DNA from: Roseomonas sp.
GTDB taxonomy: Bacteria; Pseudomonadota; Alphaproteobacteria; Acetobacterales; Acetobacteraceae
Assembly: GCA_031180725.1 (NCBI GenBank)
Contig: JAPSLO010000006.1
Coordinates: forward strand, 186,001 to 250,000
DNA: 64,000 nt
Direction: 5' to 3'
Part shown: piece by piece, positions 2,211 through 18,853 of the stretch
Numbering within the stretch: position 1 is the first letter of the stretch
Layout: each line of letters begins with the position of its first letter
Notes under the pieces: model-generated
Told to the model about the DNA's origin: nothing
The model's input: the letters and a program-made list of their open reading frames with translations, nothing else
The model's database searches: none
Position numbers and translations under genes: made by a program

Positions 2211-5200
2211 TCAAACGACAATGAAATCCTGATGCGATAGGCCTACTGGGCGCGACGTTAGAACCGCAAACAGGACTCCGCCGGCCGGGCCGACTCCGTC
2301 GGCATCGAAGACTAGCTCCCAGGAGTTCGGGTCGTAGATGATTTGGCCTTGCGCGCCCCGTGCCACGGTGCTGCCGATCACGAAGAACGAAGCTGCGTCG
2401 AGTTGTCCTGGGGAGAGGTCCGCGAAGGCGTCGGCATCAAGTTCGATCCGGTCTTCGGACGCCGAGAAATCCATGACCCGATCCCAGTTGCCCGAGCCAA
2501 GCGGCGCATCGAAAACGAAGGTGTCTGCACCGGCGCCTCCGTAGAGACGATCCTTGCCACCACCACCCGCGATCCTGTCGCCGCCGGCGCTGCCCCGTAT
2601 GGTCTGGTCGAACTCGTTCCCAACGAGCACCCGTGCCTGCGATGTCGTCTGGGCCGTAAGGGACTCGATCTCCTGCCCCTCTGCAAGCGCGAAGCTGGCC
2701 CTGGCAACAACAGTATCCTTGCCCCCGCCCGTAGCTTCGACCACGAGATCCGAAGCGCTATGGACAAAGAAGCGGTCATCGCCGGTGCCGCCGAGTAGCG
2801 TGTCCGCGCCCTTGCCCCCGCTCAAACGGTCGTTGCCGCCGCCGCCCCACAGGACATTGTTGAAGCTGTTTCCGAACAGCAGGTCATTGAAGGCCGAACC
2901 GGCAAGGTTTTCGATCGAGACGAATGTATCGCCGTCCGCATCGCCCTGAGATCCGGTGGCGGAAGTTGGAAGGGTGTAGCTGTCGAGATCCTTCATGCGG
3001 AAGGAAAGACCTGCGCCGGTGACGGTATTCGTCGCCGCGGCGTGAGTGTAGTCAGCCGTATCCGATCCGCCCGCGCCGTCGAGGAGGTCGGCGCCTGCCC
3101 CGCCTTCGAGCCAGTTGTCGCCCTCATTGCCGTAGAGCTGATCGCCGGCCCGGGTGCCGCGCAGATTCTCGATCGAGAAGTAGAAGTCGCCCTCTGCGTC
3201 CTCGGTATTCAGGCTCTGGTCGGCAAGGCTGGCGACAATGCCGATCAGGCCGACGACTGCCTCGTGGTAAGAGACGGTGTCTATGCCATCCCCGCCATCG
3301 ATGAAGTCGTCATCCGGATCCGGATCCTGACCGAAGCCGCCACCAAGCCGGTCCGGGTCGCTGGCTTCCAGGACGTCACTGCCCCCGAAGCCATAAAGAT
3401 CGTCGAACCCGCCATTGCCGTACAGGATGTTGTTGTCGTCGTCGCCCTCGAGCACATCGGCGTAGCGGGAGCCCCGGATATTCTCGATGGAGTTGTAGGT
3501 GTCGCCGGCCGCATAGCCCGTGTTGGTCCAGTATTCTCTCAGGCTGACCGTAATTCCTTCGAAGGTGAGATCGTCTGGCCGAGGGCTGACCTGGATCAGC
3601 CCTGTGCTTACCTGGTCAGAATAGTCCGCCGTATCGGAGCCGAAGCCACCATCGAGGAGGTCGCCCCCATCCCTGCCCCTCAGGTTGTCGTCACCGCTGC
3701 CGCCGAGAAGGAAATCCTCGTCCGAGGCGGTGCCGATAAGCGTGTCGTTGCCGTCTGCGCCGGTCAGCTCTGGCGTGTTGATCTGGCCCTCGATGATGTC
3801 ATCATGGTTGGAACCGATGATGACCTCGATGGAGGTGAACTGGTCGCCGGCCGAGTCTCCAAGCCACCCACGCCCTTCGGAGACCCAGATGCCGCTCGTC
3901 GCGGTCAGGTAGGACAAGACATCCCAGCCTGCGCCACCGTCCATCCAATCCCCGCCACCGCCTCCGGCCAGAGTGTCATCGCCACTGCCGGTGACGACGT
4001 GGTCGCCCAGGGCGCTGCCATACACCTCGAAGCGCTCGACGCCTGCGAAGTCCAGCGTCTTGCGCCACCAGGCCGAGTAGTCCGCCAGGATGGTCAGGCT
4101 GCCGCTTGCCGTGCCCGACCCATCCACGGCGGTGTCCATCCGGAAGCCATGCGTGTTCTCGGTGAGCGCACGGTAGTCGATGACCAGGCGGTCGCCGTCC
4201 CCGGACCCAAGGTCGATATTGTCATAGCCGGTGGCGTCCTTGGCGGCGGCACTGAACACCGCGACCGTGTCGTTCCCGTCCCCGGTCCAGAGCGTGTCCG
4301 AGAATGCGCCGCTTCCATGGGTGGATATGTCGTCGTTGCCCGATCCGGTGGTGAGTGTGAGGGCTTCAACAGCGCAAAGATTGCCCGCACCCGTGCGCTG
4401 CACGGTAGACGGTGCCAGGTTGAGGTTGACCGTGATCGCAGAGGAAAAATCAGAAAGATCGGCCAGCCAGCGGTCGTTGCCATTTCCGCCGTCAATAACG
4501 GCGCGCCCCTTGCCGCTGTCGAGCAGGTCATCGCCACCCTCGCCGCTTAAGGTGTCGTTGCCGTTCCCTGTGACAATGTGGTCGCCCAGGGCGCTGCCAT
4601 GCACCTCGAAGCGCTCGACGCCTGCGAAGTCCAGCGTCTTGCGCCACCAGTCCGAATAGTCCGCCAGGATGGTCAGGCTGCCGCTTGCCGTGCCCGACCC
4701 ATCCACGGCGGTGTTCATCCGGAAGCCATGCGTGTTCTCGGTGAGCGCACGATAGTCGATGATGAGGAGGTCGTGCCCGCCTTCGCCCAGGTCCACGTTG
4801 TTATAGCCCGTGGCGTCCTTGGTGGCGGCACTGAACACCGTCACCGCATCATTGGCGCCCCCGGTGCTGAGCGTGTTCCAGAAGGCGCCGCTTGCGTGTG
4901 TGATGATCTCGTCGCGCGACGAGCCGGTCGCGAGCGTCAAAGCCTCGACGCTGCGAAGATATCCGACTCCTGTCTGCTGGGTTTTGCTCGGCGCGACAGT
5001 AAGATCCACGGTGATCTGGACGGAGAGGTCCGAGAGGTCCGCCAGCCAACGGTCGCTGCCAAGACCTCCGTCGGCATTTGCTCGCCCCTTGCCGCTGTCG
5101 AGCAGGTCGTTGCCACCGCCCCCGGCCAGAGTATCATCGCCACTGCCGGTGACGATGTGGTCGCCCAGGGCGCTGCCATACACCTCGAAGCGCTCGACGC

Positions 5201-5567
5201 CCGCGAAGTCCAGCGTCTTGCGCCACCAGGCCGAGTAGTCCGCCAGGATGGTCAGGCTGCCGCTTGCCGTGCCCGACCCATCCACGGCGGTGTCCATCCG
5301 GAAGCCATGCGTGTTCTCGGTGAGCGCACGGTAGTCGATGACCAGGCGGTCGCCGTCGCCGGACCCAAGGTCGACATTGTCATAGCCGGTGCTGAAGCTG
5401 GTAGAGCTGCTTGTTACTTTAATGGTGTCATTCCCGCCGAGCGTCGCAAATACATCGCTGCCACCATTCCCGTCGTGGGCAACGTCGTCCTGCTCGGTGC
5501 CACTCCAAACATCATCCCCGGGGGTGCCGGTAAAGACGGCTATTCGAACGACTTCCTCCACAACCAA
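2211..5567 (-). CDS. Large RTX-type calcium-binding repeat protein, probably secreted by a type I system
   Basis: The 1118-residue acidic protein is built of glycine/aspartate nonapeptide repeats of the RTX type (GGxGxDxLx) scattered from residue 15 to the C-terminus; such repeats fold into Ca2+-bound beta-rolls outside the cell. Residues about 62-545 contain a 193-residue module in two full and one partial copy. The last ~100 residues resemble serralysin/haemolysin C-termini and end in the hydrophobic DFIVV, the kind of uncleaved tail recognised by type I exporters. No N-terminal signal peptide and no protease, lipase or other enzymatic motif is visible. No T1SS genes lie in the window. The first in-frame start is TTG at 5567. 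A better-placed ribosome site points to an ATA codon at 5543 (see separate entry). It stands alone, convergent with tctA. Confidence 0.85.
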   Translation of the reverse strand: MVVEEVVRIAVFTGTPGDDVWSGTEQDDVAHDGNGGSDVFATLGGNDTIKVTSSSTSFSTGYDNVDLGSGDGDRLVIDYRALTENTHGFRMDTAVDGSGTASGSLTILADYSAWWRKTLDFAGVERFEVYGSALGDHIVTGSGDDTLAGGGGNDLLDSGKGRANADGGLGSDRWLADLSDLSVQITVDLTVAPSKTQQTGVGYLRSVEALTLATGSSRDEIITHASGAFWNTLSTGGANDAVTVFSAATKDATGYNNVDLGEGGHDLLIIDYRALTENTHGFRMNTAVDGSGTASGSLTILADYSDWWRKTLDFAGVERFEVHGSALGDHIVTGNGNDTLSGEGGDDLLDSGKGRAVIDGGNGNDRWLADLSDFSSAITVNLNLAPSTVQRTGAGNLCAVEALTLTTGSGNDDISTHGSGAFSDTLWTGDGNDTVAVFSAAAKDATGYDNIDLGSGDGDRLVIDYRALTENTHGFRMDTAVDGSGTASGSLTILADYSAWWRKTLDFAGVERFEVYGSALGDHVVTGSGDDTLAGGGGGDWMDGGAGWDVLSYLTATSGIWVSEGRGWLGDSAGDQFTSIEVIIGSNHDDIIEGQINTPELTGADGNDTLIGTASDEDFLLGGSGDDNLRGRDGGDLLDGGFGSDTADYSDQVSTGLIQVSPRPDDLTFEGITVSLREYWTNTGYAAGDTYNSIENIRGSRYADVLEGDDDNNILYGNGGFDDLYGFGGSDVLEASDPDRLGGGFGQDPDPDDDFIDGGDGIDTVSYHEAVVGLIGIVASLADQSLNTEDAEGDFYFSIENLRGTRAGDQLYGNEGDNWLEGGAGADLLDGAGGSDTADYTHAAATNTVTGAGLSFRMKDLDSYTLPTSATGSQGDADGDTFVSIENLAGSAFNDLLFGNSFNNVLWGGGGNDRLSGGKGADTLLGGTGDDRFFVHSASDLVVEATGGGKDTVVARASFALAEGQEIESLTAQTTSQARVLVGNEFDQTIRGSAGGDRIAGGGGKDRLYGGAGADTFVFDAPLGSGNWDRVMDFSASEDRIELDADAFADLSPGQLDAASFFVIGSTVARGAQGQIIYDPNSWELVFDADGVGPAGGVLFAVLTSRPVGLSHQDFIVV
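3940..5384 (-). repeat. 193-codon tandem module inside the RTX gene (2.5 copies)
   Basis: The module recurs with a period of exactly 579 bases: equivalent bases of the shared segment lie at 3999, 4578 and 5157. On the coding strand copy 1 runs about 5384-4806, copy 2 4805-4227 and copy 3 (first half only) 4226 to about 3940. The core (YRALTENTHGFRM ... WWRKTLDFAGVERFEV) is nearly identical in DNA between copies, with copies 1 and 3 more alike than either is to copy 2. The stretch between the cores is more diverged. Confidence 0.9.
5541..5559 (-). promoter_or_regulatory. Strong ribosome-binding site pointing to an ATA codon
   Basis: On the minus strand GGAGGAAG (5559-5552) is followed after eight bases by ATA (5543-5541) and then by codons reading AVFTGTPGDD, which is how many RTX proteins begin after their initial Met. 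The annotated TTG (5567) has a weaker purine run upstream. Either the gene starts at TTG/GTG upstream, or the original ATG has become ATA. Confidence 0.4.
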
Positions 5568-5790: not shown

Positions 5791-6819
5791 CTACGCCGCC
5801 CGCCGTGCCGCCGCCGGCAGGATCTCGGCCAGCAGGTCCTCCAGCAGTTCCGGCAGGGCGAGGGGCGTCGCGCCGCCGCCGCCGCTGCCGAAGGGCCCAC
5901 GCGCCGCGGCGAGGCTCACGCCGAGGCGTTTCGCCAGGCGTTGCAGCGCCGCCTGGCATTGCGGCCGGGTCGGCAGGGCGGTGATGCGCTGGCCAAGGGG
6001 CAGCAGGTCGTTGGCGCCGGTCAGGGAGAGCTTCTCAGTGCCCGCCAGCTTGGTCGCGGCGACGCCGTGCGCCCCGCGCTCGTCCTTCGCTACGACAAAG
6101 GAACGGTGCGTCAGCCCCGGTGCTACCCAGGAGATGCGATGTGTATAGGCACTGCCGATGCGGGCCAGCGCCTTCGCCACCGTCTCCGCCATGACGTTGT
6201 GCATGGCCGCATAGGCGCGCTTCTCGTTCGGCCCCCATTTCCACCGCGTTGCGGAGACACGGATGGCGGAGTGATCGGCGCGCCAGGGAGAGACGGCATT
6301 GCCGCGCTCCTCGAACAAGCCGGGATCGTCGTATTGCACGGAAGGCGAGGTGCCGCCGGGATAGGTGAGCATATGCTCATAGGGCACAAGCCCGAGCGGC
6401 TCCGAGATCACGGCGCGATGGACGACCGTGCCGGAGGCATGGACCAGCGGCGCCTGGCTGAACAACGCCTCCGGCTCTCTGTCCTCCTTCAACTCCAGCA
6501 GGGTGGGATCGGCGGGTGCGGTGGGTGTGAAGCCGGCGGCGAGCAGCGCGGCATTGATCCGGCGATGTTCTGTGGAGAGGATGTAGGGCTTGGTCCTCGT
6601 GCAGGGTAGCAGCAGCAGCACGCGCCGGGGCGCGGCGGGCAGCTTCGGCTCGTACTGCGTCAGGATGAAGTCGAACCAGGCCCTGACAGCCGGGTGCCGC
6701 AGTGAATCCACATTGTCCTGCGGGGAGTAGAGCGCCAGCGACGGATCCAGCGTGAAGGGCGCGCGGAATTTGGCGGCAGATTCACGCAGACGCGTATCGC
6801 GGTCGTCGGTCGTGACCAT
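5791..6819 (-). CDS. DUF5591 protein resembling the archaeosine synthase catalytic core
   Basis: The 342-residue cytoplasmic protein carries the two hallmarks I associate with the DUF5591 core of archaeal archaeosine synthase (ArcS): LPCTRTKPY followed by LSTEH at residues 71-85, and SEPLGLVPYE at residues 139-148. ArcS converts the nitrile of preQ0 in tRNA to an amidine. This protein has no recognisable PUA RNA-binding domain, and the C-terminal ~120 residues are not familiar to me. Start ATG 6819 is five bases after the stop of the preceding gene, so it is the last gene of the eight-gene operon. A role on a small-molecule nitrile or amidine rather than tRNA is only inference from the catabolic neighbours. 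Confidence 0.65.
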   Translation of the reverse strand: MVTTDDRDTRLRESAAKFRAPFTLDPSLALYSPQDNVDSLRHPAVRAWFDFILTQYEPKLPAAPRRVLLLLPCTRTKPYILSTEHRRINAALLAAGFTPTAPADPTLLELKEDREPEALFSQAPLVHASGTVVHRAVISEPLGLVPYEHMLTYPGGTSPSVQYDDPGLFEERGNAVSPWRADHSAIRVSATRWKWGPNEKRAYAAMHNVMAETVAKALARIGSAYTHRISWVAPGLTHRSFVVAKDERGAHGVAATKLAGTEKLSLTGANDLLPLGQRITALPTRPQCQAALQRLAKRLGVSLAAARGPFGSGGGGATPLALPELLEDLLAEILPAAARRAA

Positions 6820-6824
6820 GGCGA

Positions 6825-7808
6825 TCAGGTCTCCAGGATCTCGGGCGGGAAGAGTTGCTCGGGTTCCAGCGCTGCCTTCAGCAGGCCTTCGCCGCGCATG
6901 TAGCGGATCAGGGTGGCGAACATGACGCGGTTCTTCGCAAAGCCGGCGGACCAGAAGTCCTCGCCCAGCAGGCACTCCGTCTCCTCGATGTGCTGGGCCA
7001 GCCAGGGCAGGCCGACGGCAAGCGTTGCGCTGTCATGCAGGCGCAGCCGCGCCAGGTGCTGGCTTTCGGCGAAGGCGTCGAACAGCGCGCGCGGCAGGGC
7101 AGGGTTCGCCTCCACGAACTCACGCTTGACGGCGACCAAATGCATGGGCGGGTAGATGCCGGTCCTGCGGTAGTAGTCCAGCTCGGCCGCCATAGGATCG
7201 GCGAAGAGGCGGCCGACCTTGTCCGGCGCGGTGAAGAAGCTGTCCGGCGCGCGGGCGGTGTAGAGTGCATCAATCTCGCCGCGCTCCAGCATTTCCGACA
7301 GCGACCTGTCGGTGACATGCTCCACCGTCACGCCCGGCGGATAGACCTGCGGATGGTCTTCGCCGCTACGCGCTTCGTTCAGGCCGGCATTGACATAGAT
7401 GGGCGCCTGCACGGGTAGGCCGTAGTGCTCGGCGAAAATGCCGCGCAGCCACACCGCCGCGGCCATATCCCACACCATGGTGCCTACCCGCTTGCCGGCC
7501 AGGTCGGCCGGCCTGGTCAGTCCCTTCGCCTTGTTCACGAAGACGCAGGAGAAGCGGAAATGCCGCGAAGGGAAGACGGGGATGCCGACATAGTCCTGCC
7601 TCGGCAGGTCGAAATGGCGCAGCCAGGTGGCGATGGGGAACTCGCAGCAGTCAAAGCGGTGCGTCGTCATCTGCGTGTTGAACAGCGCCTGCAAGGGCAT
7701 CTGCGTGATGTCTGCCGTGACGCCCTGAATCGCCACGCGGCCTTCCGCGATGGCACGCAGCCTGTCGCAATCCGAGACGCCGATCGAAAGGCGGATGGGC
7801 TCTGTCAT
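6825..7808 (-). CDS. 4,5-dihydroxyphthalate decarboxylase (Pht5)-like protein with periplasmic-binding fold
   Basis: The 327-residue protein starts MTEPIRLSIGVSDCDR and matches the Pht5-like family, a cytoplasmic offshoot of the NMT1/SsuA type II binding-protein fold. It shows the two-lobe pattern of that fold, with conserved DLAGKRVG near residues 102-109 and the R-S-G-E-D region near 147. There is no signal peptide or lipobox, so it is not an ordinary transporter receptor. It is either a decarboxylase or another ligand-binding protein. Its ATG overlaps the stop of the amidohydrolase gene (ATGA, 7805-7808), placing it firmly in the operon. Many genomes label such genes as ABC substrate-binding proteins. 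Confidence 0.7.
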   Translation of the reverse strand: MTEPIRLSIGVSDCDRLRAIAEGRVAIQGVTADITQMPLQALFNTQMTTHRFDCCEFPIATWLRHFDLPRQDYVGIPVFPSRHFRFSCVFVNKAKGLTRPADLAGKRVGTMVWDMAAAVWLRGIFAEHYGLPVQAPIYVNAGLNEARSGEDHPQVYPPGVTVEHVTDRSLSEMLERGEIDALYTARAPDSFFTAPDKVGRLFADPMAAELDYYRRTGIYPPMHLVAVKREFVEANPALPRALFDAFAESQHLARLRLHDSATLAVGLPWLAQHIEETECLLGEDFWSAGFAKNRVMFATLIRYMRGEGLLKAALEPEQLFPPEILET

Positions 7809-9286
7809 CGGAATGCGGTCTCCACAGGGATCTTGCTGAAGGCGGGCAGAGGGGCGCGGCCAGCGGCTTCGGCGAAGGCCACGGCGTGCGGTTCGATGCG
7901 CTGCGCCAGCGCCCGGGCCGGGGCGAGGCGCCGGTGCAGTTCCGCCAGTGCGGCCTGGGCCAGCGGCGCGATGTCCTGAAGCGCCGGGGCGGTGGCGCGG
8001 CCCGCGGCCACTATCTGGCGGCCGGCGACGAAGACCTCTTTCACGGCACCGGCGGCGTTGCAGGCCACGGCCTGCACCAGCGGGTCGTTCAGCGGGGTGA
8101 AGGCGCGATGGTCCAGATCGAGCAGCGTCAGGTCCGCCGCTAGGCCCGGCATGATGCGGCCCGAGCCAAGTTCCAGGAGGGCCGCGCCACCTTCGGTCGC
8201 CAGCGTCAATGCCTCCCGCGCATCGAGCCAGGCGTCACGCGGCAGATCGCGGATGCGGGAGAGATTGGCCGCCAGGCGCGTCATCTCGAACATGTCAAGG
8301 CTGTCTGCCGAATTGCAGCCATCCGTGCCAAGCCCGATGCGGATGCCGCGCTGCCGCATGGCGCGCAGCGGCGCGACGCCCGCGCCGAGCCGCAGGTTTG
8401 AGGCGGGCATATGCGCAATGCCTGCGCCGCGGCTCGCCAGCAGGTCCAGCTCCGCCTCGTCCAGCCAGACGCCATGCGCGGCGGTGAAGCGCGGGCCGAT
8501 CAGGCCGTGGCGGTCCATTTCGATGATCGGGCCGTGGCCCCAGACCTGCCGCGCCAGCACCGCCTGCAAGCGCGATTCCGCGACATGCATGTGCAGCGGC
8601 AGATCGAAGTCTTCGGCCAGCTTCCGGCAATCGCGCAGGAAGTCAGGCCTGCAGTGATGCGGGATGGTGGGCGCGAGGGCGAGGCTGATGCCGGGCGGCA
8701 GGTCGGGCTTCACTGCGAAGGTCTCGCGCAGCGCCGCCAGGGTCTGATCCGCCGGCGCCAGGCGGAAGCGCGTGACCTCTGCGCGCAGATCCTCGGGCAG
8801 CGCCTCGACCAGGCCGGGGATCGCCTCGAACAGCGTCAGGTCGGCCACCATGGGCGCGATCACGGCACGAAGGCCGGCCTCGGCATAGGCTTCGGCCACC
8901 ACGCGCAGCCCTTCGGCGGTGGGGGCGGGAAATTCGTAGAACAGGTCCCAGCAGGCGGTGCAGCCGGCCTCCAGCATCTCGCCCGCGCCGAGCAGGGTGG
9001 AAAGCCGCATTGTCGTGGCATCGCGCTGCCCACCCATCCAGGGGCCGTGCGTCAGGGAGGCTTCCAGCAGCCAGCGGTCAGCAACTCCCTTCATCAGATT
9101 GGCATGGCTGTGCGTATGCGCGTTCACCAGCCCTGGGAGAATCAATCGGCGGGATGCATCGAAGCGCGGCACGTCCTGCGGGCCTTGGCCGGGCGGCAGC
9201 ACGGCGGCGATGCGACCGCCCCGCAGCAGGATGTCGCGGGGCGCGACGCTGCCTGCGGCAAAGGCCAGTCCGCCCGCGATCAGCAT
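7805..9286 (-). CDS. Amidohydrolase, TRZ/ATZ/guanine-deaminase type
   Basis: The 493-residue enzyme belongs to the metal-dependent amidohydrolase superfamily that deaminates or dechlorinates N-heterocycles and related compounds. Visible are the metal site HTHSH near residues 57-61, a central HMHVAES segment, the AAHGVWLD segment and the late GTDGCNSADS motif supplying the catalytic Asp. The start is ATG 9286, which overlaps the deacetylase stop by seven bases. A longer open frame upstream runs through the deacetylase gene and is not real. In this operon it would act on a ring or amidine intermediate; substrate unknown. Confidence 0.85.
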   Translation of the reverse strand: MLIAGGLAFAAGSVAPRDILLRGGRIAAVLPPGQGPQDVPRFDASRRLILPGLVNAHTHSHANLMKGVADRWLLEASLTHGPWMGGQRDATTMRLSTLLGAGEMLEAGCTACWDLFYEFPAPTAEGLRVVAEAYAEAGLRAVIAPMVADLTLFEAIPGLVEALPEDLRAEVTRFRLAPADQTLAALRETFAVKPDLPPGISLALAPTIPHHCRPDFLRDCRKLAEDFDLPLHMHVAESRLQAVLARQVWGHGPIIEMDRHGLIGPRFTAAHGVWLDEAELDLLASRGAGIAHMPASNLRLGAGVAPLRAMRQRGIRIGLGTDGCNSADSLDMFEMTRLAANLSRIRDLPRDAWLDAREALTLATEGGAALLELGSGRIMPGLAADLTLLDLDHRAFTPLNDPLVQAVACNAAGAVKEVFVAGRQIVAAGRATAPALQDIAPLAQAALAELHRRLAPARALAQRIEPHAVAFAEAAGRAPLPAFSKIPVETAFR

Positions 9287-10185
9287 GGCGGCGGTACCTG
9301 CGCCATCCAGTGCCGTGCCGCTTCCAGCCGGGTCGGCTGCCAGACTTCCGGCGCCGCCACCAGCAGGTCCAGGAAACGCCGCAGCCCATCGAAACACGCG
9401 GGCTGGCCGCTGATGCGCGCATGCAGGCTGACCACCATCATGCGCGCCGCCGTGCGGCTTTCGTCGCGCAGCACGCGGAAGGCTGCGGAAAGCTGGGCCA
9501 GCCAATCTTCGGCCGTGGGCAGCTTCGCGGTGGCCAGGCGGTTGTCGTTCAGTACGAAGCTGTGCGGCATCATCAGATGCGGCTGGCCGTCCACCAGCGT
9601 CCAGCAAGGCAGGTCCTCGGCATAAAAGTCGGCGTCGTAGAGGAACCCCTGCTCGCGCAGGATCGGCCGCGTGTGGATGGTGGGCGCGTAGCGGCTTTGC
9701 CAGCCCAGCGGGCGACGACCGGTGACGGCTTCGAGGGATGCCACGGCCCGAGTGATCTCTTCGCGTTGCGCGGCCTCGGACATCTGCCAATGGCGCCGGA
9801 AACCGTAGCCATGCGCCTGCACCTCATGGCGCGGATGGGCGCGAATCGCCTCGCCCAGCGGCGGATTGCGTTCCAGCGCGCGACCGCAGCAGGAGAGAGT
9901 CAGGGAAAGTCCGCGCGCCTCGGCTTCCTGCCAGATGCGCCAGATGCCGGCGCGGGCGCCATATTCGAACAGGCTTTCGGCCAGCAGATCGCGCGTGCCG
10001 GGCGGCACCTCGCCAGGGATGCCGTCGGTCAGCGCCAACTCGGTTGCGGGATCGCCATCGGGCATCGAGGGCTCCGCCCCTTCCTCGATGTTCAGCACGA
10101 TCACCAGCGCCAGCCGCCCGCCATTCGGCCAGACCACATCCGGCGTGCGACCAGCATAGCCGACGAAATCGCGCGGGCTGCTCAT
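9280..10185 (-). CDS. Polysaccharide-deacetylase-fold hydrolase, PuuE/allantoinase-like
   Basis: The 301-residue protein has the NodB-type fold but with the features of the PuuE branch, which hydrolyses cyclic amides such as allantoin: the YGARAGIWRI segment near residue 75, HEVQAHGYGFRRHW near 120, and TRPILREQGFLYDADFYAEDLP near 175-195. The second half contains a conserved-looking MMVVSLHARISGQPA segment. It overlaps the amidase stop (ATGA at 10182-10185) and the amidohydrolase start. Ring opening of a lactam or hydantoin-like compound fits its neighbours, but the substrate is not determined. Confidence 0.8.
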   Translation of the reverse strand: MSSPRDFVGYAGRTPDVVWPNGGRLALVIVLNIEEGAEPSMPDGDPATELALTDGIPGEVPPGTRDLLAESLFEYGARAGIWRIWQEAEARGLSLTLSCCGRALERNPPLGEAIRAHPRHEVQAHGYGFRRHWQMSEAAQREEITRAVASLEAVTGRRPLGWQSRYAPTIHTRPILREQGFLYDADFYAEDLPCWTLVDGQPHLMMPHSFVLNDNRLATAKLPTAEDWLAQLSAAFRVLRDESRTAARMMVVSLHARISGQPACFDGLRRFLDLLVAAPEVWQPTRLEAARHWMAQVPPPC

Positions 10186-11348
10186 GCCAGGGCGGGCGCC
10201 AGCGCCTCGGCCGCGGCCATCAGCATCGCATCGCCGTGGGAGGGACCGATCAGCGACAGGCCGATGGGCACGCCGTTGATTTCGCCGGCCGGCAGGTTCA
10301 CCTGCGGCAGGCGGCAGAGGCTCGCCACACAGGTCAGCGCCAGCGTCCGGTCGCGGAACTCGATCTGTGCCGAGACGGGCGCGCCGACCTTCGGCGGCAG
10401 ATCATGCGCGGTGGGAAGCACCAGGATGCCGTCGCCGGCCAGCAGCGCCTGCAACCGACCGGCCAGGGCTTCCCGTGCCGCCCAGGCGCGGGCGATGGCC
10501 GGCGCCGGAACCTGGCCGGCCAGCGCGATGCGTTCTGCCACCAGGGGCGAGAGGCGCCGGCCCGGCTGCATCGCCCAGGTGCCGTGCGTGGCCCAGAGCT
10601 CGCCGAGCTGCAAGGGCCGGAAGGTGTCCAGCCAGTGCGGGATCCCTTCTCGATACAGCGCAACCGGCGTGGCGCCGCCCAGCTTTGCCGCGGCGGCCCG
10701 CAGCGCGGCGCTGACCTCGGGCACGCAGATGTTGAAGGCATCCTCGGCCAGTAGCAGGCGCGGGTTGGCCTCGGCAAAGCCGACGTACTGGCCGCCGATT
10801 TTCCGCAGCATTGCGGCGCCGCGGGCGAACCAGCCCACCGTGTCGAAGCTCGGCGCCATCGGCATCAGCCCGGCAGTGGAGACACGCCCATGCGTGGTGC
10901 GGATGCCGAACAGGCCACAGAAGCTGGCCGGCACGCGCACCGACCCGCCGGTATCCGTGCCAAAGGCGAAGTCGCAGATTCCTGCCGCGACAGCCGCCGC
11001 GGAACCAGAAGAGGAACCACCCGGCACACGCCCCGGCGCCCGCAGATTGATCGGCGGGCCGTAATGCGGGTTCTCGCCGAACATGCCGCTCGCCAGCTCG
11101 TCGGTGTGCGTCTTGCCGATCAGCGTTGCGCCGGCAGCCAGCGCTGGCAGCAGCGCGCTGGCGGTGGTGAGCGACACGGGCGCTTCCTCCAGCCGGTCCG
11201 GATTGCCCCAGCCGCTGCGGGTGCCCGCCACATCGAATAGGTCCTTCGCGGCGAAGGTCAGCCCGGCCAGCGGGCCTTCCGCCGCACCTTTCAGGACAAC
11301 ATCGCCATGCGCGACGAAGGCGCTGACGCGGATCTCGTCCGGCGTCAT
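10182..11348 (-). CDS. Amidase (amidase-signature family)
   Basis: The 388-residue enzyme hydrolyses an amide to acid and ammonia using the Ser-cisSer-Lys triad of the amidase-signature family. I can place Lys35 in TFAAKDLFDV, the GGSSSGS loop at residues 110-116, and the nucleophile Ser136 in TDTGGSVRVP. The protein is shorter than typical GatA-like amidases (450-500 residues), consistent with the small AtzF/indoleacetamide-hydrolase branch. Start ATG 11348 overlaps the HpaB-family stop (ATGA). It probably acts late in the pathway of this operon, releasing ammonia. Confidence 0.9.
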   Translation of the reverse strand: MTPDEIRVSAFVAHGDVVLKGAAEGPLAGLTFAAKDLFDVAGTRSGWGNPDRLEEAPVSLTTASALLPALAAGATLIGKTHTDELASGMFGENPHYGPPINLRAPGRVPGGSSSGSAAAVAAGICDFAFGTDTGGSVRVPASFCGLFGIRTTHGRVSTAGLMPMAPSFDTVGWFARGAAMLRKIGGQYVGFAEANPRLLLAEDAFNICVPEVSAALRAAAAKLGGATPVALYREGIPHWLDTFRPLQLGELWATHGTWAMQPGRRLSPLVAERIALAGQVPAPAIARAWAAREALAGRLQALLAGDGILVLPTAHDLPPKVGAPVSAQIEFRDRTLALTCVASLCRLPQVNLPAGEINGVPIGLSLIGPSHGDAMLMAAAEALAPALA

Positions 11349-12811
11349 TCCGCGGCCGCCCGCATCACGGCGCCCGGCAGGCCGTAGCTCGCCATGAAAT
11401 CTTCCACCATGCCACGTGGCCCGTTCCAGTCGTGGAAACGGTAGCTGTTGCCACGGATGGCGAATTGCGGACCGGAATAGAACATCTCGTATTGCAGGTG
11501 CCGGGAGCCGAACTCGCTGCCGATTGCATCCCAGGCCAGCTTCATCAGCTTCACCCGCCCCAGCGAATCCGTCACGGGCGAGCGCTGCGCGGCACGGATC
11601 AGCGTCTCGATCTCGCCGCCGTCGAAATCCGCCGCCGAGGACGGCACCATGATGAGCCCCCCGCCGGAGAGCAGGCGGATAGCCTCGATGAACTCTGGGT
11701 AGGTGGTCTGGGCCACGGTCTGCGCCGCCACCAGCAGGCGGCGGTCCGGCACGAAGGTGCCGCGGAAATCCTCGCCCTGTGCTTCCATGGCGGTGACCAG
11801 CGCCTCGATCGTGCTGGCCTTGGCGGCGAGAAGGCCAAGCGTCTCCCGTGTCTGCGGGAAGTTCAGGATGCCATTGGTTTCCGCCACCTTGTGCGCCAGG
11901 CCCAGCAGGAAGCGGAGCTTCACCGAAAGCCGCACGATGCACTGGTAGTTCTGCATCACATGCGCCCGCGTCTCGTGCCACTGCGCCTGCATCATGCGCA
12001 GGTCGCGGTAGACGAAGACACGCTCCCACGGCACCTTCACATCGTCGAAGAACACCACCGCATCATTCTCGTCGAAGCGGGCGGCGAGCGGATAGTCGAA
12101 GCCATTGCCGGCAGCGGCCTCGTAGCTGCGGCGGGAATGCAGCTTCAGCCCCTTGCTGCCGATCGGCAGGACAGCGGTGAAAGCATAGGGCTCGTCGCCC
12201 GGCTGCAGGGCCACGATGCCGCTGACCATGATCTCATTCGCCATGATGCCGGCGGTGGCCAGCATCTTGGCACCGCGGATGGTGATGCCCTGCGCATCCT
12301 CGTCCACCACTTGCGCGACCAGGTCGGCCCCGGGCTGGTCCTTCGCCTGGCGCGACTTGTCGGCCTGCGGGTTGATGATGACATAGGCTACCCAGGCGTC
12401 GTTGTCCCGGATGTGCCGGAAGTAGTCGGCCAGCGCCTGGGCTCGCTTTTCCTCGTACAGGTGCAGCCCGGCCATGAAGCCGACGAAGGTGGAAGCGACA
12501 TGGTCCGGGCTGCGGCCCATCATGCCGCAGCTCTGCTCCGCCCACCGCTCCATCGCATGGCGGCGGCGCACAAGCTCGGCTTGATTGCGCGGCGTCATCC
12601 AGGCCAGGTTCACCCGCCGCCCCGGGGCGGCGGGGCTTTCGAAGGTCATCTCCTCGACATGCGCCGCCTGGTAGTCATAGAGCCGTGCGGCCGAGGCGAC
12701 GGCGCCGGCGAAGGCGGGATCCGTCGTGACATCCCCCACGCGCCGCCCGTCGATGAACACCGCCCGGGCGTCGCGCAGGCTGGCCAGATGCGCTTCCCCG
12801 TTCTTCACCAT
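11345..12811 (-). CDS. 4-hydroxyphenylacetate 3-monooxygenase-type (HpaB family) flavin monooxygenase
   Basis: This 488-residue protein is a group D flavin-dependent monooxygenase oxygenase component. Such enzymes take FADH2 from a separate reductase and hydroxylate or oxidise a ring. Family features are the N-terminal SLRDARAVFIDGRRVGDVTTDPAF segment split over residues 11-34, the flavin region near residues 145-210 (INPQADKS, DEDAQGITIRGAKMLAT), and the C-terminal RNSYRFHDW-like end. No HpaC-type reductase is in the window, so reducing flavin must come from elsewhere. RBS AAGGAAG lies upstream of ATG 12811, within or just after the end of the FAD-oxidoreductase gene. The substrate may not be a phenol. 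Confidence 0.9.
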   Translation of the reverse strand: MVKNGEAHLASLRDARAVFIDGRRVGDVTTDPAFAGAVASAARLYDYQAAHVEEMTFESPAAPGRRVNLAWMTPRNQAELVRRRHAMERWAEQSCGMMGRSPDHVASTFVGFMAGLHLYEEKRAQALADYFRHIRDNDAWVAYVIINPQADKSRQAKDQPGADLVAQVVDEDAQGITIRGAKMLATAGIMANEIMVSGIVALQPGDEPYAFTAVLPIGSKGLKLHSRRSYEAAAGNGFDYPLAARFDENDAVVFFDDVKVPWERVFVYRDLRMMQAQWHETRAHVMQNYQCIVRLSVKLRFLLGLAHKVAETNGILNFPQTRETLGLLAAKASTIEALVTAMEAQGEDFRGTFVPDRRLLVAAQTVAQTTYPEFIEAIRLLSGGGLIMVPSSAADFDGGEIETLIRAAQRSPVTDSLGRVKLMKLAWDAIGSEFGSRHLQYEMFYSGPQFAIRGNSYRFHDWNGPRGMVEDFMASYGLPGAVMRAAAE

Positions 12812-12822
12812 CGTCGTCTTCC

Positions 12823-14292
12823 TTACAGCACCTGTCCGGAGGCCAGCCGCAGCGAGACCAGTTCGCGCTCGGCATAGTCCGCCAGATCAGGCAATTGCGC
12901 CTCGGCCTGTTCCCGGAAGAGGTCGCGGGCGATGCCGGCGGCGATGCGTTCGACCGTCGGCCGCAGCATGGAAATGCCGGCCGAGGAGATGGTGCTGACC
13001 ATCGCCCCGAAGGAAATGCTGCGCACCCGCCGCACCCAGGTGCCTTCTGCGCTGCGCGGCGTGAAGGACAGGTCCGGACCCAGATAAGGGAAGCCGGCCA
13101 TCACCGGATGCGCCAGCTCGGCCGGCGGCGTGTAGCGGTGGCGCCACAGCGCGGCATGCGGCGCAAGCGTGGCCAATTCCCGCCGCCGCGCCAGATCCAC
13201 CACGAAGCCAGTGCCCAGGATGAGGAAATCCGCCTCGAAGGCGCCGCGCGGCGTGGAGACGCGGATCACGCAGCCCGCCATCTCCACATGCGCCATCGGC
13301 GCGCCGGGATGCACGCGGAAGCCGGGGTGCGTCGCGCAGCGGTCCCAGCTTTCCTGCGGCGGCGGCTGGTTCAGCGTGAACAGCCGGTGCATGTACTGCC
13401 ACTTCACCGCGTCCGGCAGCTCGGCAAAGTGGTGCAGAATGCCGGCGAACTCGATCCAGCGGTTCGGATTGACCCGCGGCAGGGCTGGGCGCCGCACCAG
13501 CATGTCCAGGCTGGCGGCACCATGCTCCAGCGCCATCGCCGCATTATCGAAGGCCGAGGCACCGGCCCCCACCACCAGTACCCGCTTTCCGGTCAGTGAG
13601 GTGAAGTCGATCTGCTCCGCCGTATGGGCGTAGCGGTCGCGGGGCAGGGCGCGGGCGACGGCGTCCGGGATATTGAGCCCGCCGCAGCCATCCATGCCGG
13701 TGGCCAGCACCACATGCCGCGCCAGCAGCCGGCGCCGTGCGCCGTCCGCGCCTTCGGCGTCCAGCGCCAGCACCGCCTCGTCATACGGCGCGATCCCCGT
13801 CAAGCGGCAGGCATGCTCCATCGGGATCGCCAGCAGCGCGCGCAGCCAGGCCAGGTAGTCGTCCCAATCCTCACGCGGAATCTTGTGCAGTGCGGCCCAG
13901 GCGGCCTCGCCATAGCGCGCCTCGAACCAGGCGCGGACGGAGAGCGCGGCGAAGCCCAGCTCCGGCCCCGTCACATGCTTCGGCGTGCGCAAGGCGCGCA
14001 TCCGGGCGAAGCGGCGCCACACACCCTGCGCGCCCGGCGGCGCCGCATCCAGCACCAGCACATTGTCCACTGCCTGGCGCCGCAGCGCGAAGGCGGTGGC
14101 AATGCCGTGCTGGCCGGCGCCCACCACCACCACATCATGCACCTTGCCCTCCGGCCGAGCCAGCGGGCGCACCCAGGGGCGTGCCGGATAGGCCAGGGTC
14201 TCCAGCTCCCATCGTGCCCGCGTTTCCAGCGTCGCCAGGCGCCGGGCGGCGTCGGGCAGGGGCGAGAGGCGGCTGAAGGGCAAGGCGTCCAT
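12823..14292 (-). CDS. FAD/NAD(P)-binding monooxygenase-like oxidoreductase
   Basis: The 489-residue flavoprotein has an FAD Rossmann motif VVVGAGQHGIATA near residues 55-67 and an NAD(P) motif VLVVGAGASAFDNAA near residues 235-250, the layout of flavin-containing and Baeyer-Villiger-type monooxygenases. A canonical FMO fingerprint FxGxxxHxxxW/Y is not obvious, so it could equally be an oxidase or reductase. The stop at 12823 is 11 bases before the HpaB-like start, and the ATG at 14292 is two bases after the stop of the binding-protein gene. It is a candidate first oxidation step or an electron-transfer partner in the operon. Confidence 0.8.
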   Translation of the reverse strand: MDALPFSRLSPLPDAARRLATLETRARWELETLAYPARPWVRPLARPEGKVHDVVVVGAGQHGIATAFALRRQAVDNVLVLDAAPPGAQGVWRRFARMRALRTPKHVTGPELGFAALSVRAWFEARYGEAAWAALHKIPREDWDDYLAWLRALLAIPMEHACRLTGIAPYDEAVLALDAEGADGARRRLLARHVVLATGMDGCGGLNIPDAVARALPRDRYAHTAEQIDFTSLTGKRVLVVGAGASAFDNAAMALEHGAASLDMLVRRPALPRVNPNRWIEFAGILHHFAELPDAVKWQYMHRLFTLNQPPPQESWDRCATHPGFRVHPGAPMAHVEMAGCVIRVSTPRGAFEADFLILGTGFVVDLARRRELATLAPHAALWRHRYTPPAELAHPVMAGFPYLGPDLSFTPRSAEGTWVRRVRSISFGAMVSTISSAGISMLRPTVERIAAGIARDLFREQAEAQLPDLADYAERELVSLRLASGQVL

Positions 14293-14294
14293 GG

Positions 14295-15323
14295 TCAGGC
14301 GCGCAGCGTTGGCAGCATGCGGTCCGCCAACGGCGGCAGGAATTCGGTGCGCATGAAGCTCTCGGCCGAAGGCGGATTCGCCACGTTGAAGGCCTCCGCC
14401 ACGATCCGCACCATGGCCGCGGCGCGGGCGGCGTCCACATGGCCGGTGCCAAGGGCGGCCACCGTCGGTGTCGTCACCACATCGCGGATCGTGAAGGCGA
14501 AGCGGTTGTTCTCCAGCGGCACATCGGTCAGCGGCTCCCGCGCCTTGATCGAGGCGACGGCGGCGGCGGGATCGCTGATGGAATCCTTGAGGCCGCGGAT
14601 GGTGGCGGCGACCAGCGCCTTCACCAGGCCGGGGTCGCGCTGGGTGTATTCGGCGGTGGTCAGCAGGGCATTGCCGTAGATGTCCACACCATGGTCGTTG
14701 TAGCGGAACATGCGGATGTCATCCGCCTTCGCGCCGAGCGACTGCAGCTGGAAATAGGCGCTGGAGATGAACGAGGTGATGGCATCCGCCTCGCCCCGGT
14801 GCAGCATCGGCTCACGCAGCGGCGGCGCCACGGAGATCCAGGTGACGTCGTTCGGCGAAAGGCCGTTGGCGCGGGCAAAGGCGGGGAACAGGGTGCGACC
14901 GGCATCGCCCACCGGCGCAGCGATGCGCTTGCCCTTCAGGTCCTGCGGCGTTTCGATGCCGCGCCCGGCCAGTGTCACCACGGCAGCCAGCGTGCGGTCG
15001 AAATACTGGTAGACGTTCAGCACGGCCCGGCCAGGATTCTCGGCATTGTGCTTCACGATGGCGCCCGGGTCGCCGAAGCCGAAATCGGCCGCGCCGCTGG
15101 CGATCTTCGTCACCACGTCGCCGGAGCCGTAGCCGCGCTGGATCTCAACCTGCAGCCCTTCCTGCGCGAAGTAGCCGCGATCGGCCGCCAGGAACCAGGC
15201 CGCATGGTGCGCCAGCGGGGTCCAGTCCAGCATGAAGCGGATTTGGCGGCGCTGCGCGAAGGCGGGGCGGGCCAGCAGGGCGCCTGGCAGCAGCAGCGCG
15301 GCACGACGGGTCAGCGCGATCAT
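14295..15323 (-). CDS. Periplasmic substrate-binding protein, NMT1/THI5/SsuA type
   Basis: The 342-residue product begins with a Tat-like or Sec signal (TRRAALLLPGALLARPAFA, cleavage around residue 24). It continues as a type II periplasmic binding protein of the NMT1/THI5 family (RFMLDWTPLAHHAAWFLA, ADFGFGDPGAIV), members of which capture pyrimidines, sulfonates, nitrate or taurine for ABC import. The start ATG 15323 has a textbook GAGGAGG six bases upstream and is the first gene of the operon. No permease or ATPase gene accompanies it, which is unusual. Its ligand is presumably the substrate of the downstream enzymes. Confidence 0.88.
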   Translation of the reverse strand: MIALTRRAALLLPGALLARPAFAQRRQIRFMLDWTPLAHHAAWFLAADRGYFAQEGLQVEIQRGYGSGDVVTKIASGAADFGFGDPGAIVKHNAENPGRAVLNVYQYFDRTLAAVVTLAGRGIETPQDLKGKRIAAPVGDAGRTLFPAFARANGLSPNDVTWISVAPPLREPMLHRGEADAITSFISSAYFQLQSLGAKADDIRMFRYNDHGVDIYGNALLTTAEYTQRDPGLVKALVAATIRGLKDSISDPAAAVASIKAREPLTDVPLENNRFAFTIRDVVTTPTVAALGTGHVDAARAAAMVRIVAEAFNVANPPSAESFMRTEFLPPLADRMLPTLRA

Positions 15324-15958
15324 CGGGGCCTCCTCGGGGATCAGGTTGCAAGGCATGGGCAGCGCCGCGCCGACAGGGCGGCGGATCGGGCGGTGCTGCG
15401 GAAGGGCGTCATGCGGGGCGCGGCTCTCGAATCGCGGTGGGCGACGATGGGCATCGCCGGCCGGCGGGCCTGCGCGATACGGCTTCGATCTGTCGCCCGG
15501 CCCGACTTTCCGGCTCGCCGGGGCAGGGAGGAGGTTACCAGCAAACCCCCGCCCGGCGAGGGGCCGGAGCTCCCTTCGGTGCCGAATTCTGCGCCTGTGC
15601 TGCCGCATTTGCCTGCGATGCGGACAGATCTGCCGGGATCTGCCCTCGGATTTGGCAGCGTTGCATCGCGCCTGGCTTGCTGGCGGTGCGAGCTCGGGCG
15701 GCGCTGCGGCCGGATTGGCCAGCGTGCCGTGTGACCCCAGCCGAGACTGCGCGCTGCCGGAACCGCAACGCCGCGGCGTCATGCCGATCGGGACATTGCG
15801 CCGCCTGCCATCATCGCGGAGATTGCTTCCCACTGCCCCGGTCCAGGTACCAAAGCATGGTCCGAGAACCAGCAGCGCGGGAGGCGCGGCCGCCCGCGCT
15901 GGGCAGCCCCCTCTCGGGCAGCCCACCTTCGGGCACCCCGGCCAATGGCGGGGCGGCC
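15324..15958. other. Divergent intergenic region between the catabolic operon and the HWE kinase
   Basis: This gap must hold the promoters of both the eight-gene operon (leftward) and the kinase gene (rightward); part of it, 15857-15958, is coding if the kinase uses its earlier ATG. I see no convincing -35/-10 pair and no operator palindrome. The only structure noticed is short repeats (GATCTGCC twice near 15627-15644). A bit of sequence just before ATG 15323 (CAACCTGATCC, minus strand) resembles part of a thiamine element but lacks the rest. Confidence 0.5.
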
Positions 15959-18853
15959 ATGTCGCCGGCCGGCCCCTCCGGCCAGCCGGCCCCCTTCGCA
16001 CGTCACCTGCTGCGACTGTTGCTGGCTGTCACCCTGCCCCTCGTCGGGCTTGCGGCCGGCTTCGCTTTGTGGTCGGCGGATCGCAGCCGCGCCCTGGAAC
16101 TGCGCGGCCTGGAGCTGGCGGCCCAGGCCCTGCAGACTGGACTCGATCGCGAGTTCAGCCTGGTGATCGCCACGCTGGAAACCCTCGCCACCTCGCCGGC
16201 CCTCGATGCGGCCCTGGGCGCCGGGCCGGATAGTGCGGAAGCCGCCACCTTCCAAAGCCAGGTGACGGAGGTACTGGCGCGGCGCGGTGCCACCCTTTCG
16301 GCCATCTGGCTGCTCAGCGCCACGGACCCGCCGGTGCAACTGCTCTCTACCGTCTTGCCGGCAGATCATGCGACAACCCCGCCCACCGCCATGGCCCCGA
16401 CGCGTGCCGAGGGCCTCCTGCCCGATGTCCTGGCCGGCTGGCGGCGGGCCACGGAGGGCGCGGTCTATGTCAGCGACCTGGCCGAAGGCGACGCGGCGGG
16501 CCATCGGCTGAGCGTCTCCGTGCCGGCGTTGCGCGGCGACCGGGCGGTGGCGGTGCTCGGAGCCGGCGTTAAGGGGCAGGCGCTGCGCGACCAGCTCCGC
16601 GTGCAGACACTCGGTCCGCCGGGCATCGTCTCGCTCTCTGACCGCGCAGGCCTCATCCTGGCACGCAACATCGCCGATGAGCGCTGGGTGGGCCGCCCGG
16701 CCGCGGCCGCCGTGCAGGCCTTCCGCCAGGGGCCGGCAGCGCAGTCGAAGCCGACGCTCAGCGAGGCGGAGGATGGCCGGGCGGTCTATGCCGCGCTGCT
16801 GCGCCTCTCCACCGTGCCCTTCACCTTGTCCTACGGCGTGCCGTCAGACCTGGTGGATATGCCGCTCCGCCGCACCCAGCTTCTGGCAGCGGCCTTCGGC
16901 ATCATGGCGCTGAGTGTCGTCGTGGCGGCCGCGATGTCCTTCGGCAGCCGCATGGGGGCGGAGCTCGCGGCGCTGGGTGCGGATGCGCTGCTTTCCGCAG
17001 GCGGCCGCACGCCGCGCCCGCGGGAGGCGCCGCGCATCGCCGAAGTGGCGGCCGCCCGCGACGCGCTGCAACGCGCCACCGCTGCCCTGTCCGAGGCCGA
17101 GGCCCGCCTCCACCGCGCCGTCGCCGCGGCCCGCATCGCCACCTGGGAATGGGAGGTGCAGCGCGACGTGATCACCGGCTCCCCAGGCTGGGAGGAGCTG
17201 TATGGTCGCGCCATCGGTTCCGTCGCGAGCCGGAAGGAGCTGCTGGAAGCCATCCACCCGGGAGACCGTGCCGCCGTGATGGAGGCGGCGCGCGCCGCGC
17301 TGGCAGGCGAGGCGGGCGGCCGCTACGAGGCGGAATACCGCACCATTTGGCCGGATGGCACGGAACGCTGGCTGCACACCCAGGGGCGCGCGGAATTCGC
17401 CGCAGATGGCACGCCGCTGCGCCTGATCGGCGCCGTAGTGGACGTCACCGAGCGCCGCCTGGCCGAGGACGCGCTGCGAGGCAGCGAAAGCCGTCTGCGC
17501 CTGGCGCAGGAGGCTGCCGGCATCGGCGCCTGGGAGCGCGACCTGCAGACCGGCGTCGCTATCTGGTCCGAGGAGGAATACCGGTTGCACGGGCTGGATC
17601 CCGCCCAGCCTGCGCCGGACCTCGAGACGCTGCGGGCGCTGGTGCTGCCCGAGGACCACATCGGTGGCCTGCCGATCGATAGGCTGCGCGATAGCGGCCT
17701 GGAAGTTGGAGAGAACGCCCCCCCGTTCCGAGCGGAATACCGTATCCGTCGGCCCGACAACGGAGAGCTGCGCTGGCTGCAGCTCACAGCTCGCCTTCTG
17801 CCGGGCCCGGGTGGGCGGCCTACGCGCGTGGTGGGCGTCAGCCTGGACATCACCGCCCGCCGCTCCGCCGAGGAACGCCAGGCCCTGCTGGTGCGCGAGG
17901 TGGACCACCGGGCGAAGAACGCGCTGGCAGTCGCGCTTTCCGTCGTGCAGCTGGCGCCGCGCAACGTGCCGCCCGCCGAGTTCGCCGCTGGGGTCTCCGG
18001 TCGCATTGCCGCCATGGCGCGCGCTCATTCCCTGCTGGCCGCGGAAGGTTGGGCGGGGGCGGATATGCTGACGCTGGTTGAAAGCGAACTGGCCGCCTAC
18101 AAGGGGCGCGTGCGGCTGGATGGCCAGCCGGTGCGCCTGGAGGCCAATGCCGCGCAGCCGCTAGCGATGATCCTGCACGAGCTAGCCACCAACGCGGCGA
18201 AGCACGGCGCCTTCTCGACCAAGGGCGGGACCGTGGAGCTGCGCTGGCGGTTGGAGGATGGCCTGACCCTGACCTGGCAGGAGAGCGGCGGTCCGCTCGT
18301 GAAGGGACGGCCGGGCCATTCGGGCTTCGGCACGCGCCTGCTGACGGCACTCGCCCGCCAACAGCTCCGCGGAGAGCTGCATTCGGATTGGTCGGATCCC
18401 GCAGGGCTGCGCGTGACGCTGCGCCTGCCGGCGCGACATCTCGTGGCCACAACCTCCATCCGCGTGCAGAACGGCGCGCATATCGCACCCCGCGTGCTGC
18501 TGGTGGAGGACGAGGCCGTGCCTGCCCAACAGGCAGAAGAATGGCTGCGCGGCCTGGGATGCCGCGTGATCGGCCCCGTCGGCGACCTGGCGCAGGCCTT
18601 GCGACTGGCGAGAGCCGAGCCAGCACCCGACCTCGCCCTGCTGGACGTGCAGCTGGAGAACGGCGAGGCGGTGTTCCCGGTGGCGGAGGTGCTGCGCCGA
18701 CGGGGCGTGCCCTTCCTCTTCACCACCGCCTACGCCGGAGATGGCGAATTACGCAGCCGGGAGGACCAGGCCGTTGGCGTGATCCACAAGCCCTTCCTGC
18801 GCGAGGCCCTGGAAGACGCCCTGCTGCGCACGCTCGGGACGGTGCGGGACTAG
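15959..18853 (+). CDS. HWE-family sensor histidine kinase with C-terminal receiver domain
   Basis: The 964-residue membrane sensor has a transmembrane segment near residues 15-35, an extracytoplasmic sensing region, a second helix near residues 305-325, and two PAS/PAC domains (about 375-500 and 505-635). An HWE/HisKA_2 kinase core follows, with phospho-His in EVDHRAKNAL near residue 649 and the N-box HELATNAAKHG near 740. The last 120 residues form a receiver (RVLLVEDEA from ~844, phospho-Asp in LLDVQL near 896). ATG 15959 is preferred because it leaves a normal short N-terminus; ATG 15857 would add 34 Pro/Ala-rich residues. HWE kinases usually act in general stress or light signalling. No DNA-binding partner is nearby, and it diverges from the catabolic operon. 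Confidence 0.88.
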   Translation: MSPAGPSGQPAPFARHLLRLLLAVTLPLVGLAAGFALWSADRSRALELRGLELAAQALQTGLDREFSLVIATLETLATSPALDAALGAGPDSAEAATFQSQVTEVLARRGATLSAIWLLSATDPPVQLLSTVLPADHATTPPTAMAPTRAEGLLPDVLAGWRRATEGAVYVSDLAEGDAAGHRLSVSVPALRGDRAVAVLGAGVKGQALRDQLRVQTLGPPGIVSLSDRAGLILARNIADERWVGRPAAAAVQAFRQGPAAQSKPTLSEAEDGRAVYAALLRLSTVPFTLSYGVPSDLVDMPLRRTQLLAAAFGIMALSVVVAAAMSFGSRMGAELAALGADALLSAGGRTPRPREAPRIAEVAAARDALQRATAALSEAEARLHRAVAAARIATWEWEVQRDVITGSPGWEELYGRAIGSVASRKELLEAIHPGDRAAVMEAARAALAGEAGGRYEAEYRTIWPDGTERWLHTQGRAEFAADGTPLRLIGAVVDVTERRLAEDALRGSESRLRLAQEAAGIGAWERDLQTGVAIWSEEEYRLHGLDPAQPAPDLETLRALVLPEDHIGGLPIDRLRDSGLEVGENAPPFRAEYRIRRPDNGELRWLQLTARLLPGPGGRPTRVVGVSLDITARRSAEERQALLVREVDHRAKNALAVALSVVQLAPRNVPPAEFAAGVSGRIAAMARAHSLLAAEGWAGADMLTLVESELAAYKGRVRLDGQPVRLEANAAQPLAMILHELATNAAKHGAFSTKGGTVELRWRLEDGLTLTWQESGGPLVKGRPGHSGFGTRLLTALARQQLRGELHSDWSDPAGLRVTLRLPARHLVATTSIRVQNGAHIAPRVLLVEDEAVPAQQAEEWLRGLGCRVIGPVGDLAQALRLARAEPAPDLALLDVQLENGEAVFPVAEVLRRRGVPFLFTTAYAGDGELRSREDQAVGVIHKPFLREALEDALLRTLGTVRD

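Follow-up and report, generated by a model that had tools for sequence, protein, structure and literature searches.

The window analysed here, a 64,000-nucleotide stretch of the 5.7 Mb genome of a Roseomonas sp. (contig JAPSLO010000006.1, positions 186,001 to 250,000), harbours eight open frames on the minus strand that run from 15323 to 5791 and end in a gene for a DUF5591 protein, a relative of the core of archaeosine synthase (ArcS). The first-pass annotation had described eight tightly packed leftward genes spaced by at most 11 bases, and the intergenic distances of 2, 11, -4, -4, -7, -4 and 5 bases, i.e. -7 to +11 with the start codons that we chose, bear this out. The eight gene families that it had named were likewise recovered by Pfam, NCBIfam and PDB sequence searches. 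The first gene (14295..15323, P0008) encodes an NMT1/THI5-like ABC substrate-binding protein (PF09084, 152.9 bits) and is followed by those for an FAD-dependent monooxygenase-like protein (FMO, P0007; 12823..14292; PF13434, 47.9 bits; PF13738, 46.6 bits) with a GAGQHG stretch, and for an HpaB-type flavin-dependent oxygenase (P0006; 11345..12811) that has HpaB relatives in the PDB. Next come an amidase-signature hydrolase (AMID, P0005; 10182..11348; PF01425; NCBIfam PRK08310, 437.9 bits versus a cut-off of 391), in which the GGSSSGS, TDTGGS and Lys stretches were all found, a PuuE/NodB-type hydrolase (PUUE, P0004; 9280..10185), and a TRZ/ATZ-type amidohydrolase (AMHY, P0003; 7805..9286; PF01979, 163.8 bits) with the metal motif HTHSH, the scores of P0005 and P0003 coming from slightly longer frames than these coordinates. 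A Pht5-like decarboxylase (PHT5, P0002; 6825..7808), which matches the solved 4,5-dihydroxyphthalate decarboxylase 9jp7 across residues 4-327 (E 6.4e-57), and the 342-residue DUF5591 protein (P0001; 5791..6819) complete the operon.

Several of these enzymes score below the cut-offs of the characterized families that they resemble. The HpaB-type protein exceeds the cut-offs of the Pfam HpaB domains (PF11794, 272 bits; PF03241, 189.8 bits) but not those of the 4-hydroxyphenylacetate 3-monooxygenase equivalogs (299.5 versus 480.2 and 279.2 versus 885.2), the PuuE-like protein stays below the allantoinase PuuE equivalog domain (TIGR03212, 254.6 versus 424.6 bits), and AMHY below the 8-oxoguanine deaminase equivalog PRK08203 (226.9 versus 532). 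Pht5-like and HpaB-type proteins are shared with the Pht5 and HpaB aromatic-acid pathways, but here the HpaB equivalog cut-offs are not reached and the partners are C-N hydrolases.

The DUF5591 protein is akin to the core of ArcS, an archaeal tRNA enzyme that acts on modified guanine. It exceeds the curated Pfam cut-off (37.2 bits versus 26) and carries the motif PCTRTKPYILSTEH, which fits the ArcS core motif, PCX3KPYX2SX2H; the Cys, Lys, Pro, Tyr, Ser and His residues of this motif are kept in all 64 rows of the DUF5591 alignment. A structural match to the core domain (AF0587, PDB 2q07) and the Cys-Lys-Pro-Tyr-Ser-His motif are what the two proteins have in common, whereas the window protein is bacterial, scores far below the NCBIfam ArcS equivalog model (38.1 versus 440) and is encoded within hydrolase/oxygenase operons. 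The TGT-like domain included in the ArcS architecture was not found in it, nor was a PUA domain or any Pfam family besides DUF5591 (E up to 0.01). The PUA domain belongs to that architecture too (PMC6884629). A search of the literature collection used here found no paper that names bacterial DUF5591, for which the operon offers a possible function.

The gene set recurs around DUF5591 in other genomes. A pattern-based, non-exhaustive scan across 84,980 species, each represented by a single genome, yielded 74 DUF5591 loci and a plasmid collection one more, giving 75 (39 alphaproteobacterial and 36 other), at which partner genes were called by tblastn with bit cut-offs that we set, some loci ending at contig edges. 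PHT5 was found at 36 loci, AMID and FMO at 32 each, HPAB at 29, AMHY at 22, PUUE at 20 and NMT1 at six. At least one partner is present at 34 of the 39 alphaproteobacterial loci (none at L039, L041, L044, L047 and L055); outside this class the only partners are PHT5 genes at L063 and L064. Among the 14 Roseomonas-group loci (L016-L029), 12 show FMO-HPAB-AMID-PHT5-DUF5591 in the same order, and two (L016 and L019) hold seven of the eight genes in that order, with NMT1 and PUUE present and AMHY missing. Conservation of order in other genomes therefore holds for a five-gene core and, at two loci, for seven genes, but not for all eight, as the exact order recurs at no other locus among the 75 and the full run lies in the window alone. 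With the cut-offs used, PUUE was detected at L016, L019 and L026 and AMHY without PUUE at L017, L018, L020 and L021 (L025 and L026 end at contig edges); the two occur together at none of the 14 loci and both in the window, as if they stood in for each other in this group or had partners elsewhere. The DUF5591 protein itself is rare: P0001 was found in one of 398 genomes of the phylum, its own, and PF17884 in 11 of 59 relatives, all of the same genus as the window (11 of the 15 in that genus, own genome counted). Its nearest named relatives in the DUF5591 tree are from Roseomonas and Falsiroseomonas.

HpaB served as a control for this clustering. It was detected at E 1e-100 or better in 13 of 289 alphaproteobacterial genomes, and DUF5591 in none of the 12 other than its own, a search run without a dedicated positive control, although the same query matched four of four known genomes elsewhere. 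The operon set was absent from all eight HpaB neighbourhoods examined in genomes lacking DUF5591, four of which had an amidase homologue (30-43%) near HpaB. Because these eight neighbourhoods lack the set while 34 of 39 alphaproteobacterial DUF5591 loci hold partners, the clustering around DUF5591 is more than chance. At L108, in a genome with no DUF5591 match, homologues of HPAB, AA_synth, AMHY3 and amidase lie in a row, possibly a related pathway.

Two kinds of module surround DUF5591. In the other Alphaproteobacteria, as exemplified by L037, the cluster further includes a flavin reductase, an arylmalonate-decarboxylase-like protein, a second NodB-type hydrolase, CobW, an AraC regulator, a class III aminotransferase, a histone-deacetylase-like (HDAC-like) hydrolase, an aldehyde dehydrogenase, an 8-oxoguanine-deaminase-like enzyme (AMHY2) and an ABC ATPase. 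At many loci of Actinomycetota and Chloroflexota, and at two alphaproteobacterial ones (L047 and L055), DUF5591 is instead accompanied by hydantoinase-like, isochorismatase-like, AA_synth, DUF1989 and aldolase II genes, and in part of the former by a PF02608 Bmp/PnrA-like ABC transporter, whose substrate-binding protein occurs at 14 of the 36 non-alphaproteobacterial loci. When 73 DUF5591 proteins were placed on a tree by a quick method, with a midpoint root and with near-copies kept in, the module labels proved more clustered than shuffled ones (16 changes versus a mean of 35); three changes fall between the two modules. HDAC-like genes occur at nine of 39 alphaproteobacterial and 10 of 36 other loci (56% identity between the two seed loci). 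The aminotransferases of one kind are only distant kin (26%) of those of the other, as are the amidohydrolases (30%). A weak match to the DUF5591 profile (E 4.3e-4) lies in a 163-residue frame at L091, in another genome of the family of L082.

The conserved clustering across alphaproteobacterial families, together with the different set of C-N hydrolases that joins the same DUF5591 in other phyla, gives good support to the earlier proposal of a common pathway for a nitrogen heterocycle, and that the substrate is an N-heterocycle is firm. That it is guanine-like is likely: the presence of an ArcS-core protein indicates such a substrate, perhaps a 7-deazaguanine, although the latter is a reasoned guess. 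The AMHY2 enzyme of L037, the sole one tested, exceeds the 8-oxoguanine deaminase cut-off (PRK08203, 620.1 versus 532), and HxHxxQ is present in 16 of 16 AMHY2 proteins. At L082, DUF5591 adjoins a Bmp transporter and a guanine-deaminase-like enzyme, the latter below its cut-off (286.6 versus 375.4). Purine operons are known to include NMT1 transport genes (PMC7373994).

Such enzymes, along with the PuuE-like and hydantoinase-like proteins and the Bmp and NMT1 transport genes, could also serve ordinary purine or pterin breakdown (of 8-oxoguanine, urate-like or isoxanthopterin-like compounds), with a co-opted DUF5591 protein carrying out an unrelated step. A deaminase-type amidohydrolase, FAD oxygenase, PuuE-like hydrolase, amidase and NMT1 transport are shared with urate catabolism via 8-oxoguanine deaminase and PuuE allantoinase, but the window's PuuE-like protein and amidohydrolase fall short of the family cut-offs, and HpaB, Pht5-like and DUF5591 proteins are not known to take part in that pathway. 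An ArcS-type motif intact in every aligned row is hard to explain were its chemistry unneeded, and no xanthine riboswitch was found in the scanned loci; we consider this explanation unlikely. Another N-heterocycle of the s-triazine, barbiturate, hydantoin or pyrimidine type, as the first-pass annotation envisaged, is a doubtful if serious candidate. TRZ/ATZ-type amidohydrolases occur at many loci, hydantoinase-like and biuret-hydrolase-like genes (both below their cut-offs) in non-alphaproteobacterial clusters, and at L048 (11047-13814) the genes after DUF5591 encode first an asparaginase-like protein and then a cyanuric acid amidohydrolase (AtzD; 529.6 versus 360). The window's amidase also has an AtzE-like score, albeit below both cut-offs (170.4 versus 461 and 169.3 versus 425.75). 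Unlike s-triazine degradation systems (AtzB/AtzD/AtzE kinds), however, the relatives carry guanine-deaminase-type enzymes and PnrA/Bmp-type transporters at many loci and spread across several phyla, and the kinship of DUF5591 to the ArcS core is at odds with such a substrate. A biosynthetic unit tailoring a heterocyclic metabolite appears very improbable, given the import-type binding protein, the several C-N hydrolases and the decarboxylase-like protein, and the aldehyde dehydrogenase and aminotransferase in relatives, which all indicate breakdown; in its favour, the tailoring of metabolites is another role of HpaB and FMO enzymes. Archaeal ArcS, too, is a biosynthetic enzyme (PMC11298593).

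We favour, at a probability of roughly 0.38, a role in the catabolism of an imported heterocycle resembling guanine, most likely a base of the 7-deazaguanine type whose C7 bears a nitrile, amidine or aminomethyl substituent; more generally, the operon probably takes up and dismantles an N-ring compound related to guanine. In this scheme, the NMT1 protein would bind the base for uptake, the DUF5591 protein would convert the C7 group (nitrile or amidine) into an amide via its ArcS-type Cys/Lys/His motif, and the amidase would release the C7 carboxylate. HpaB might then hydroxylate the pyrrole side and the Pht5-like enzyme take off the carboxylate, before further ring oxidation by the FAD monooxygenase and ring opening by the PuuE-like and TRZ/ATZ-type hydrolases, a route that would parallel urate breakdown for a deaza compound. 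The gene set, its conservation, the ArcS kinship with its motif and the neighbours in relatives are observed, whereas the substrate, the individual reactions and the sequence of these reactions are inferred. Organisms of every domain of life make 7-deazaguanines, and the listings returned by literature searches describe no pathway for the breakdown of 7-deazaguanines or deazapurines, for which the conserved set with its ArcS-core protein is a direct, testable candidate. An HDAC-like hydrolase, of a class that cuts acyl groups from lysine, adjoins DUF5591 in some relatives. It is conceivable, if improbable, that several bacterial phyla possess a route dedicated to breaking down the 7-deazaguanine bases that tRNA turnover releases (archaeal archaeosine, preQ0, queuine). 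The ArcS-core enzyme would there attach lysine or another amine to the C7 nitrile, or exchange it on the amidine, and the HDAC-like hydrolase would then cut it off again as the amide, lysine acting as a nitrile-hydration helper.

Several observations weigh against a deazapurine substrate. The DUF5591 match spans only profile positions 1-44 of 150, and Foldseek alone matched AF0587 at E 0.03 and TM 0.31. By the conclusion of PMC11298593, ArcS needs at least the preQ0 nucleoside as substrate, so that a free base might not be accepted. In the window's AMHY, the GuaD-type Gln is missing from the metal motif, AMHY2 is found at none of the 14 Roseomonas-group loci, and the amidohydrolase of the non-alphaproteobacterial clusters (AMHY2b) has Glu in place of Gln in 35 of 35 rows (L085, a cut-off gene, being read at another motif). 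No queuosine-pathway family was present among 59 scanned neighbour proteins, a part of all neighbours; Q_salvage (PF10343) occurred in four of 25 genomes, never on a contig with DUF5591; and no riboswitch reached the gathering score in the window and 15 loci scanned. The cyanuric acid amidohydrolase at L048 points the same way. The claim that the operon encodes a full pathway is not supported for the window's genome, where no close ortholog of AMHY2 was found (the best match, at 33%, is the operon's own AMHY) and no flavin reductase, ABC permease or ABC ATPase was seen adjoining the operon when frames of 1-22000 were inspected by eye, with no family search of the flanks.

Inspection of these flanks by eye revealed further frames. 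Divergent from the operon, a large plus-strand frame (15437-18853) resembles a sensor histidine kinase with a receiver domain and is possibly a regulator. On the other side, a 1118-residue minus-strand frame (2211-5567) with many Gly/Asp-rich repeats resembles an RTX-type calcium-binding protein, and two plus-strand frames (42-2098) resemble a TctB/TctA-type transporter pair.
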